A stretch of 64,000 nt of DNA from Delphinus delphis (lineage: Eukaryota; Chordata; Mammalia; Artiodactyla; Delphinidae). The notes beneath the pieces were generated by a model, which was given only the letters and a program-made list of their open reading frames with translations, did not search any database and was not told where the DNA came from. Location: the NCBI RefSeq assembly GCF_949987515.2, contig NC_082694.2, positions 59,022,080 through 59,086,079 on the forward strand. Reading direction: 5' to 3'. A program made the translations under genes and the position numbers. Of this stretch, positions 21,239 to 64,000 are shown piece by piece. Numbering within the stretch: the first letter of the stretch is position 1; every line of letters begins with the position of its first letter.

Positions 21239-21668
21239 ATATATATATTGATATATATTTGCAAACATGTCTTTGTGCAGACATATTTTTTAATTCTTCC
21301 TAGATAGATACCGAACACTAGAATTGCTGTTTACATTTAACATTTTTTTTACATCTTTATTGGAGTATAATTGCTTTACAATGGTGTGTTAGTTTCTGCT
21401 CTATAACAAAGTGAATCAGTTATACATATACATATGTTCCCATATCTCCTCCCTCTTCCGTCTCCCGCCCTCCCACCCTCCCTATCCCTCCCATCCAGGT
21501 GGTCACAAAGCACTGAGCTGATCTCCCTGTGCTATGCGGCTGCTTCCCACTAGCTATCTGTTTTTCGTTTGGTAGTGTATATATGTCCATGCCTCTCTCT
21601 CGCTTTGTCACAGCTTACCCTTCCTCCTCCCCATATCCTCAAGTCCATTCTCTAGTAGGTCTGTGTCT

Positions 21669-24600
21669 TTATTTCTGTCTTACCCCTAGGTTCTTCATGA
21701 CATTTTTTTTTCTTATTCCATATATATGTGTTAGCATATGGTATTTGTCTTTCTCTTTCTGACTTACTTCACTCTGTGTGACAGACTCTAGGTCCATCCA
21801 CCTCACTACAAATAACGCAATTTCATTTCTTTTTATGGCTGAGTAATATTTCATTGTATATACGTGCCACATCTTCTTTATCCATTCATCCGATGATGGG
21901 CACTTAGGTTGTTTCCATCTCTGGGCTACTGTAAATAGAGCTGCAATGAACATTTTGGTACATGACTCTTTTTGAATTATGGTTTTCTCAGGGTATATGC
22001 CCAGTAGTGGGATTGCTGGGTCATATGGTAGTTCTATTTGTAGTTTTTTAAGGAACCTCCATACTGTTCTCCATAGTAGCTATACCAATTCACATTCCCA
22101 CCAGCAGTGCAAAAGTGTTCCCTTTTCTCCACACCCTCTCCAGCATTTATTGTTTCTAGATTTTTTGATGATGGCCATTCTGACCGGTGTGAGATGATAT
22201 CTCATTGTAGTTTTGATTTGCATTTCTCTAATGATTAATGATGTTGCGCATTCTTTCATGTGTTTGTTGGCAATCTGTATATCTTCTTTGGAGAAATGTC
22301 TATTTAGATCTGCCCATTTTTGGATTGGATTGTTTGTTTTTTTGTTATTGAGCTGCACGAGCTGCTTATAAATTTTGGAGATTAATCCTTTGTCAGTTGC
22401 TTCATTTACAAATATTTTCTCCCATTCTGAGGGTTGTCTTTTGGTCTTGTTTATGGTTTCCTTTGCTGTGCTAAAGCTTTGAAGTTTCGTTAGGTCCCAT
22501 TTGTTTATTTTTGTTTTTATTTCCATTTCTCTAGGAGGTGGGTCAAAAAGGATCTTGCTGTGATTTATGTCATAGAGTGTTCTGCCTATGTTTTCCTCTA
22601 AGAGTTTGATAGTTTCTGGCCTTACATTTAGGTCTTTAATCCATTTTGAGCTTATTTTTCTGTATGGTGTTAGGGAGTGATCTAATCTCATACTTTTACA
22701 TGTAGCTGTCCAGTTTTCCCAACACCACTTATTGAAGAGGCTGTCCTTTCTCCAGTGTACATTCCTGCCTCCTTTATCAAAGATAAGGTGACCATATGTG
22801 CGTGGGTTTATCTCTGGGCTTTCTATGCTGTTCCATTGATCTATATTTCTGTTTTTGTGCCAGTACCATACTGTCTTCATTACTGTAGCTTTGTAGTATG
22901 TTCTGAAGTCAGGGAGCCTGATTCCTCCAGCTCCGTTTTTTGTTCTCAAGATTGCTTTGGCTATTCGGGTTCTTTTGTGTTTCCATACAAATTGTGAAAT
23001 TTTTGTTCTAGTTCTGTGAAAAATCCCATTAGTAGTTTGATAGGGATTGATTTGAATCTGTAGATTGCTTTGAATAGTACAGTCATTTTCACAATGTTGA
23101 TTCTTCCAATCCAAGAACGTGGTACATCTCTCCATCTATTTGTATCATCTTTAATTTCTTTCATCAGTGTCTTATAATTTTCTGCATACAGGTCTTTTGT
23201 CTCCTTAGGTAGGTTTATTCCTAGATATTTTATTCTTTTTGTTGCAGTGGTAAATGGGAGTGTTTTCTTGATTTCACTTTCAGATTTTTCATCATTATTG
23301 TATAGGAATGCCAGAGATTTCTGTGCATTAATTTTGTATCCTGCTACTTTACCAAATTCATTGATTAGCTCTAGTAGTTTTCTGGTAGCATCTTTAGGAT
23401 TCTCTATGTATATATCATGTCATCTGCAAAGAGTGACAGCTTTACTTCTTCTTTTCCGATTTGGATTCCTTTTACTTCCTTTTCTTCTCTGATTGCTGTG
23501 GCTAAAACTTCCAAAACTATGTTGAATAAGAGTGGTGAGAGTGGGCAGCCTTGTCTTGTTCCTGATATTAGTGGAAATACTTTCAGTTTTTCACCGTTGA
23601 GGATGATGTTGGCTGTGGGTTTGTCATATATGGCCTTTATTATGTTGAGGAAAGTTCCCTCTATGCCTACTTTCTGCAGGGTTTTTATCATCAATGGGTG
23701 TTGAATTTTGTCAAAAGCTTTCTCTGCATCTATTGAGATGATCATATGGTTTTTATCCTTCAATTTGTTAATGTGGTGTATCACGTTGATGGATTTGCGT
23801 ATATTGAAGAATCCTTGCATTCCTGGAATAAACCCCACTTGATCATGGTGTATGATCCTTTTAATGTGCTGTTGGATTCTGTTTGCTAGTATTTTGTTGA
23901 GGATTTTTGCATCTATGTTCATCAGTGATATTGGCCTGTAGTTTTCTTTCTTTGTGACATCCTTGTCTGGTTTTGGTATCAGGGTGATGGTGGCCTCATA
24001 GAATGAGTTTGGGAGTGTTCCTCCTACTATATTTTGGAAGAGTTTGAGAAGGATAGGTGTTAGCTCTTCTCTAAATGTTTGATAGAATTCGCCTGTGAAG
24101 CCATCTGGTCCTGGGCTTTTGTTTGTTGGAAGATTTTTAATCACAGTTTCAATTTCAGTGCTTGTGTTTGGTCTGTTCATATTTTCTATTTCTTCCTGAT
24201 TCAGTCTTGGCAAGTTGTGCATTTCTAAGAATTTGTCCATTTCTTCCAGGTTGTCCATTTTATTGGCATAGAGTTGCTTGTAGTAATCTCTCATGATCTT
24301 TTGTATTTCTGCAGTGTCAGTTGTTACTTCTCCTTTTTCATTTCTAATTCTATTGATTTGAGTCTTCTTCCTTTTTTTTTTGATGAGTCTGGCTAATGGT
24401 TTATCAATTTTGTTTATCTTCTCAAAGAACCAGCTTTTAGTTTTATTGATCTTTGCTATCGTTTCCTTCATTGCTTTTTTCATTTATTTCTGATCTGATC
24501 TTTATGATTTCTTTCCTTCTGCTAACTTTGGGGTTTTTTTGTTCTTCTTTCTCTAATTGCTTTAGGTGCAAGGTTAGGTTGTTTATTCGAGATGGTTCCT

Positions 24601-34785: not shown

Positions 34786-34907
34786 TTTTGGTTTTTTTTT
34801 GGCTGTGCCGTGTGGCTTGTAGGATCTTAGTTCCCCAACCAGGGATTGAACCCAGACCATAGCAGTGAAAGCACTAAGTCCTAACCACCGGACCCCAGGG
34901 AATTCCC
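34786..34907 (-). mobile_element. CHR-type SINE, reverse
   Basis: TTTTTTTTGGCTGTGCCGTG, CCAACCAGGGATTGAACCCA and CCACCGGACCCCAGGGAATT. Confidence 0.86.
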
Positions 34908-40331: not shown

Positions 40332-40670
40332 GCTTATGATCCAGCGGATCCTCCTGGGGAGGCCGGGCCGGGGAGAGGGCGCGGGCGCCGAGCGGCGGGG
40401 GCAGCGGGCGGGCGCGGCGACCGGGGCCCGGGCGGGGATCCGGGCAGCGACCGAGGCGGCGGCAGCGCCCCGGGCCCGCCGCCCCTCCCCTCGGGCGGGG
40501 GGAACCGCTGCATGGGGCCGGGGGGTCGGCCCTGCTGCGCTGAGCCGCGGCGGCGCCGGACCCCCCAGGCGGGCTGGGGCTGAGCCCGGGGCCGGGGCGG
40601 GGGCTCCGGGGGGACCACGCCCGGAGGCCGGCCGGCCGGCCGCAGCATGGCTCACGGGCCCGGCGCGCTG
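40332..40670 (+). promoter_or_regulatory. GC/CpG-rich island carried in by the RHOQ retrocopy 5'UTR
   Basis: About 340 bp of very GC-rich sequence with many CpGs, starting exactly at the left TSD and ending just inside the RHOQ start codon region. It is retro-transposed 5'UTR, not an ancestral island, and lies 1.6-2.0 kb upstream of CDKL4 exon 1. Confidence 0.7.
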
Positions 40671-42282: not shown

Positions 42283-42512
<230 letters not shown>

Positions 42513-43759: not shown

Positions 43760-46044
<2,285 letters not shown>

Positions 46045-47121: not shown

Positions 47122-47306
47122 TTTTAATATTTATTTATTTATTTGGCTGTGCCGGGTCTTACTTGCGGCACACATGGTCTTCATGGACTCATGTGGGATC
47201 TTCATTGCGGCGTGCATGCGGGATCTAGTTCCCTGACCAGTGTTCGAACCCAGGCCCCCTGCATTGGGAGCGTGGAGTCTTAGCCACTGGACCACCAGAG
47301 AAGTCC
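47122..47306 (-). mobile_element. CHR-type SINE, reverse, in CDKL4 intron 2
   Basis: TTATTTGGCTGTGCCGGGTC, GTTCGAACCCAGGCCCCCTG and CCACTGGACCACCAGAGAAG. Confidence 0.87.
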
Positions 47307-49338: not shown

Positions 49339-49459
49339 GGGAATTCCCTGGTGGTCCAGTGGTTAGGACTTGGCGCTTTCACTGACGAGGGCATGGGTTC
49401 AGTCTCTGGTTGGGGAACTAAGATCCCACAAGCCGCACAGCATGGCCAAAAAAAACCCC
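49339..49459 (+). mobile_element. CHR-type SINE, forward
   Basis: GGGAATTCCCTGGTGGTCCA start, GGTTCAGTCTCTGG box B, CAGCATGGCCAAAAAAAACC end. AATAGGTACAATA flanks it on both sides (49323-49335, 49462-49474), a good TSD. Confidence 0.9.
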
Positions 49460-53795: not shown

Positions 53796-53871
53796 GCCTC
53801 AGCAACTTCACTCACACTTTAGCCACACTGGCCGCCTCAGCAACTTCACTCACACTTTAGCCACACTGGCC
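53796..53871 (+). repeat. 38-bp perfect tandem duplication
   Basis: The 38-base unit starting GCCTCAGCAACTTCACTCAC occurs twice with no difference (53796-53833, 53834-53871). Confidence 0.95.
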
Positions 53872-54039
53872 GCCACACTCCCAGCTCTTTCTCACCTCAG
53901 GGCCTCTCCGCATCCTCTTCAGGCTCTTTGTGTCTTTGCACTGGGTGTCAGCCCCATCTACTCACCTCGTCTGACCCCAGACCCTCATATCCTGAACCTG
54001 TGTTTTAATACCCAGGCTCTTAAGGGATAGACTTCTCAA

Positions 54040-56364: not shown

Positions 56365-56437
56365 AGTTGCTGATGGAATGATCAAAAGTGTGTTATGACA
56401 AACACTTCAAGCTCTTAACTTCTGTCATAGACGTAAC
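56365..56437 (+). pseudogene. CDKL4: CDKL4 exon 3 with in-frame TGA
   Basis: 73 nt between a TTTTTTCCCCCAG acceptor and a GTAAGT donor. After completing GGA from exon 2 it reads VADGMIKSVL, stop, QTLQALNFCHRRN. The stop (TGA, 56396-56398, codon 108) replaces the Trp of the CDKL signature WQTLQA, a single TGG-to-TGA change. The exon end reads CHRRN where relatives have CH(I/K)HN, suggesting two more non-conservative changes. 73 nt is not a multiple of three, so skipping this exon would shift the frame. Confidence 0.9.
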
Positions 56438-60425: not shown

Positions 60426-62473
<2,048 letters not shown>

Positions 62474-63405: not shown

Positions 63406-63580
63406 AGGTGAATTTACTATCTGAGAACTGTTTACTCGATTAGTGCCTCACTGCATGAACTGTTAGGAGTATCGTGGCTTCTGAGAATTACTAAAGCTGA
63501 TATGAATGCCTGACTGCTCTTGGGAGTAGCTCCTCTCTTGGGAGAATGTGACCCACCTGATTTGACTGATGCATTTGCAG

Positions 63581-63640
63581 TTCCAGGAGATGCCTACACT
63601 GATTATGTCGCTACAAGATGGTAACGAGCTCCTGAACTTC
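63581..63640 (+). pseudogene. CDKL4: CDKL4 exon 5 (activation segment) with TAA, cut by L1
   Basis: The acceptor GATGCATTTGCAG ends at 63580. The exon reads (I)PGDAYTDYVATRW, stop, RAPELL. TAA at 63622-63624 replaces the Tyr of RWYRAPE. The exon then runs straight into a 17-T tract at 63641-63657 and the 3' end of an L1 in reverse orientation, with no donor between. The kinase should continue after APELL with the substrate-binding lobe, so the coding exon is physically split. Confidence 0.9.
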
Positions 63641-64000
63641 TTTTTTTTTTTTTTTTTAACATCTTTATTGGGGTATAATTGCTTTACAATGGTGTGTTAG
63701 TTTCTGCTCTACAACAAAGTGAATCAGTTATACATATACATATGTTCCCATATCTCTTCCCTCTTGCATCTCCCTCCCTCTCACCCTCCCTATCCCACCC
63801 CTCCAGGCGGTCACAAAGCACTGAGCTGATCTCCCTGTGCTATGCGGCTGCTTCCCACTAGCTATCTACCTTACGTTTGTTAGCGTATATATGTCCATGC
63901 CTCTCTCTTGCTTTGTCACAGCTCACCCTTCCCCCTCCCCATATCCTCAAGTCCGTTCTCCAGTAGGTCTGTGTCTTTATTCCTGTCTTACCCCTAGGTT
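63641..64000 (-). mobile_element. Young L1 inserted in CDKL4 exon 5 (3' end only in window)
   Basis: A 17-T tract (63641-63657) is followed by AACATCTTTATTGGGGTATA and the same 3'UTR as the L1 at 21342, including GTGTGTTAGTTTCTGCTCTA, differing at scattered positions. The element is in reverse orientation and continues past the window. Its poly(A) end abuts coding sequence of CDKL4 exon 5. Confidence 0.93.

Follow-up and report, generated by a model that had tools for sequence, protein, structure and literature searches.

In the genome studied here, CDKL4 has two premature stop codons, and coding exon 5 is interrupted by a 1,431-bp antisense L1 element. We predict the gene to be a dead unitary pseudogene that yields no active kinase; its decay probably set in ahead of the L1 insertion and was not caused by it. 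The window, by which we mean the whole stretch of 64,000 nucleotides analyzed (C12:59022080-59086079 in a 2.66-Gb genome), was read together with the adjoining 40 kb of the same 89.9-Mb contig, and all positions beyond it are given in window numbering.

The CDKL4 locus

A tblastn search, with exon boundaries placed by GT/AG signals, located the first five CDKL4 coding exons inside the window, on the plus strand. Exon 1 (42339..42506, codons 1-56) retains an intact ATG and a GT donor and carries the changes Y15H and K34N. Exon 2 (45922..46043) carries C83S, exon 3 (56365..56437) a premature TGA at 56396-56398, and exon 4 (62378..62468) encodes CIHRDVKPEN...DFGFAQML, with its HRD and DFG motifs retained. 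The 5' part of exon 5 (63581..63642), entered through an acceptor AG at 63579-63580, contains a premature TAA at 63622-63624. Beyond the window, the remainder of exon 5 occupies 65088-65223 and is followed by a GT donor, and exons 6-9 lie at 66659-66741, 68450-68506, 70739-70873 and 73074-73175, ending in TAG. All nine coding exons are present, with eight of eight GT donors and eight of eight AG acceptors, and the joined exons form 1,029 nt in a single frame, with the normal stop at codon 343. Tandem repeats were seen at two places of this locus: G+C-rich short repeats at 40366-40436, about 2 kb upstream of the start codon, which are possibly part of a CpG-island promoter, and a perfect 38-bp repeat of 2.1 copies in intron 2 (53796-53874).

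The encoded protein is 92% identical to muntjac CDKL4 and 62-66% identical to CDKL1 proteins over the full length; by this comparison of sequences the gene is an orthologue of CDKL4, nearer to CDKL4 than to CDKL1. An orthologue of CDKL4 would be expected beside its conserved neighbours, MAP4K3 and SOS1. A DNA search of the genome with 63500-63640 returned no place other than this locus, and among the best candidates of 113 matches in a protein search, identity at the level of CDKL4 (82-93%) was seen at C12 only. The next exon set among these candidates, at C2:50.35-50.41 Mb, is 43-81% identical, and we infer it to be CDKL1. Neither search, the protein search being judged on its best candidates, found a second CDKL4 copy. 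The lesions thus lie in a single ancestral intron-containing gene with no functional copy found elsewhere in this one genome, as defines a unitary pseudogene.

The L1 inside exon 5

The preliminary description had proposed that an antisense L1 is inserted straight into a CDKL4 coding exon, and reading both ends of the element and the exon beyond it bore this out. Exon 5 enters the L1 3' end directly, with no splice donor ahead of the T tract, also as described. The left copy of a 14-bp target-site duplication, CTCCTGAACTTCTT, lies at 63629..63642 on the plus strand and is followed by a T15 tract (63643..63657, minus strand; up to T17 with two T of the duplication), which is the poly(A) tail of the L1. 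The L1 3' end then runs antisense from 63658..64000 and on to 65073 (minus strand), the element being 5'-truncated within ORF2; its length is 1,416 bp, or 1,431 bp if the T15 tract is included. It had been suggested that a duplicate followed by the rest of the exon should be found past the window, and an identical second copy of the 14 bp does lie at 65074-65087, after which exon 5 resumes (GTGGTAGATACCCACTATGG... / GTGGTAGATACCCACTATGGTTCTTCAG...) and continues up to its GT donor. A perfect match of this length on either side of the element is no coincidence. A 350-residue open frame of the element matched residues 922-1272 of the solved L1 ORF2 protein in the PDB (E 8.7e-157), and a search of Pfam with this ORF2 piece returned no family at E up to 0.001. 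One of its six PDB matches was to a chain of a cilia protein (9d2f_J, E 2.9e-12, 41 residues).

Duplication, poly(A) tail and 5' truncation together are marks of target-primed reverse transcription, and the element looks like a genuine L1 insertion. The ORF2 endonuclease would have nicked the plus strand after CTTCTT, the 3' end TTCTT would have primed on the poly(A) tail of the L1, and synthesis would have halted after about 1.4 kb. The consensus site of the L1 endonuclease is approximately TTTT/AA; the insertion site here, TTCTT/GT, is T-rich with one C on its 5' side and differs from the consensus on its 3' side.

The L1 had also been called young, and this stands in a relative sense only. 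In a comparison with 29 relatives (the nearest copies for which loci were given, out of 3,829 candidates of which 40 were scored), 7 of 1,416 positions were private to it and 21 differed from the majority base, which amounts to millions of years: at a substitution rate of approximately 1e-9 per site and year, the element would be about 5-15 million years old. The open end of ORF2 is consistent with the copy being fairly young. The window holds one more antisense L1 3' end of this kind, at 21351-22770, which is 94.7% identical to the exonic L1 over 1,425 aligned positions.

Premature stops and substitutions

Both premature stops lie upstream of the L1, and neither was mentioned in the preliminary description. 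The exon 3 TGA falls at codon 108, which is Trp in 94% of the comparators having a residue there, and the exon 5 TAA at codon 166, which is Tyr in all comparators having a residue there. The residues RAPELL do precede the L1, as had been noted, but the in-frame TAA that stands immediately before them (W*RAPELL) had been overlooked.

Conservation was scored against 33 non-cetacean sequences, with gaps left out. In this comparison 13 of 308 residues, the two stops included, are absent from all 33 sequences; two of the 13 are common to other whales, namely Q177H (minke and fin whale) and R307C (Kogia, minke and fin whale). Five changes, K34N, Y166*, G174V, D183Y and V190I, fall at columns that are at least 97% conserved, and for K34N, G174V, D183Y and V190I the column is 100% conserved among the 33 sequences. 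D183, which we take to be part of the kinase DxW motif and important for the catalytic loop, is invariant in all comparators having a residue there and is Tyr in this genome. When exon 9 and V101M are counted, 12 missense changes and the two stops are private to this genome. Exons 6-8 carry a single lineage-specific change (L248F), and exon 9 carries P314H and D338I. Nonsense changes make up 4.7% and missense changes 74% of the possible single changes in CDKL4, so 12 missense changes should be accompanied by about 0.8 stops; two are unremarkable for neutral decay, and the observed ratio fits such decay. With its exons and splice signals otherwise all in place, CDKL4 is here predicted to be a fairly recent single-copy pseudogene.

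As to the predicted consequences, the exon 3 TGA would leave a protein of 107 residues that ends before the catalytic loop, even if exon 5 were skipped. Exon 5, originally 198 nt long, reaches 1,643 nt with the insertion and is probably either skipped (198 nt being in frame) or part of no stable message; the CDKL4 message is likely degraded. If exons 2+3 and exon 5 were all skipped, the frame would survive but the kinase would not.

CDKL4 in other whales and the order of events

For other whales the comparison used automatically predicted proteins in place of genomic DNA, those of fin and gray whale being incomplete. The sequence ...RWYRAPELLVGD... is uninterrupted, with no L1, in the models of Kogia (P0024, P0141), minke (P0020), fin whale (P0126) and gray whale (P0144). 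In the Kogia model, 20 of 308 residues are unseen in the comparators, including M1V, T163P, Y178C and L210P; another two, Q57K and L58K, probably come from intronic sequence that the model took in as coding. The minke model has 7 residues unseen in the comparators, and its catalytic HRD is changed to HRG (D126G); the fin whale model has 5 such residues of 211. Separately, the minke model holds 29 additional residues between exons 2 and 3. I67T and R149Q are common to this genome and Kogia, and S288P and V98L of the baleen whale models are absent from this genome, a pattern of residues that points to a cetacean and probably to a toothed whale; narwhal has R149, which speaks against a simple grouping. 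The narwhal model (P0140) is partial: it has nothing ahead of exon 4, which is joined directly to exon 6, so that exons 1-3 and 5 are missing. This join would fit an unusable exon 5, and the L1 could be present in narwhal, but the join proves nothing because a camel model (P0123) has the same one.

Branch lengths were estimated on a fixed species tree holding 20 of the 37 sequences. Measured from the node that joins whales and ruminants, path lengths were 0.058 for this genome, 0.100 for Kogia, 0.037 for minke, 0.035 for fin whale and 0.013 for muntjac; the whale paths are 2.6 to 7.4 times that of muntjac, which is the only ruminant in the set and may be slow. Terminal branches were also long in Castor (0.166), Sorex (0.101) and Erethizon (0.052), so fast CDKL4 evolution is not confined to whales.

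A different order of events would make the L1 the killer, CDKL4 having been normally constrained until the insertion and having gained its stops and missense changes later. The insertion is disabling by itself, and the 7 to 21 differences of the L1 in 1,416 bp would allow for approximately 4 to 12 non-synonymous changes over some 800 sites, close to the 14 seen; all 14 lineage-specific changes could fit within the upper bound on its age. Setting L1 divergence against the count of coding changes in one genome fixes no order of the stops and the L1. However, the Kogia and minke models are damaged without any L1, which indicates that constraint on CDKL4 was probably relaxed more widely, at least as the protein models read, than this L1 accounts for, and we therefore regard the L1 as unlikely to be the sole cause of the decay. 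The preliminary description had left it undecided whether the gene was free to decay or was killed by the L1. The former is better supported than the latter, given the two upstream stops, the change at D183 and, in whale models lacking the L1, evolution faster than in the one ruminant of the tree, with separate damage in Kogia and minke. That the insertion persisted would be explained by a relaxation of constraint on CDKL4 common to several whale lineages.

Much less probable still is that a reduced product persists, in which exons 2+3 and exon 5 are skipped to give a non-kinase protein of about 211 residues that retains a role. Both skips keep the frame (122+73 nt and 198 nt), and each occurs in a predicted isoform of another artiodactyl, the exon 5 skip in the camel model and the skip of exons 2+3 in Bos indicus (P0122); the narwhal model likewise joins exon 4 to exon 6, and exons 6-8 have just one lineage-specific change. 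Such a product would, however, lack everything encoded by exons 2, 3 and 5, the activation segment and the D183 region among it. Exon 9 carries its own two changes, and the isoforms in question are predictions. That the insertion is an assembly artefact or chimera with no real L1 is hardly credible, for although the observation comes from one assembly, the duplication is perfect, the poly(A) tail is present, exon 5 and exons 6-9 continue in order and the contig is single, with no N in the fetched stretch; we rejected misassembly on the strength of the resumption of exon 5 beyond that duplication.

Returning to decay before the L1, a broader history has, in our judgment, about an even chance of being right. 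A mainly testis-expressed, cilium-linked CDKL4 would have been freed from selection early in whales and since then have been dying independently in each lineage, by start and activation-loop changes in Kogia, by loss of the catalytic aspartate in minke and by stops and an exonic L1 here.

The MMP20 (enamelysin) pseudogene of baleen whales, the subject of Meredith et al. (2011; cited in PMC3562159), reportedly has a SINE in a coding exon. It resembles CDKL4 here in that a retroelement lies inside a coding exon of a single-copy whale gene, beside other disabling changes. The MMP20 SINE is said to occur throughout extant baleen whales and to be linked to the loss of teeth, whereas the CDKL4 element is an L1 in a genome grouping with toothed whales, has no known trait attached to it and may be younger than the stops.

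A study of the CDKL family infers loss of CDKL4 in reptiles, birds and most ray-finned fish, states that mammals keep all five CDKL genes and reports CDKL4 mostly in testis, during spermatid development (PMC12075339). The losses it describes concern the same gene; unlike them, the present case is in a mammal, and the exons of its decayed CDKL4 can still be read. Exon 9 of ENAM in the painted turtle holds SINE insertions (PMC3562159), and ENAM is similar to CDKL4 here in being a single-copy gene in decay that has taken up transposons in its coding sequence, beside other changes that break the frame; it differs in that its decay is much older, with many frameshifts, and in that the elements are SINEs and not an L1. 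In bears, PMC13298077 reports recent transposon insertions to be absent from coding exons, in line with selection against them. Among the papers searched, none combined CDKL4 with cetacea or dolphin, the sole match for CDKL4 and whale was by its title a cattle study, and loss of CDKL4 in whales did not appear among the gene-loss matches listed.

The L1 insertion alone would be ordinary for an unconstrained gene; more interesting is that CDKL4 may be decaying in parallel among whales. If such decay is real, whales would be natural knock-outs for a little-studied kinase that is otherwise described as kept in mammals, and could show which role of CDKL4 in sperm or cilia they are able to spare. 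The L1 in exon 5 is a clean, datable marker, hardly reversible in practice, with which the loss can be positioned on the whale tree. Elsewhere in the window, ARAGORN returned five tRNA-like matches (463-535, 34830-34902, 40419-40494, 47228-47301 and 49344-49418), two of which score above the Rfam tRNA cut-off; all five are probably tRNA-derived SINEs rather than genes.
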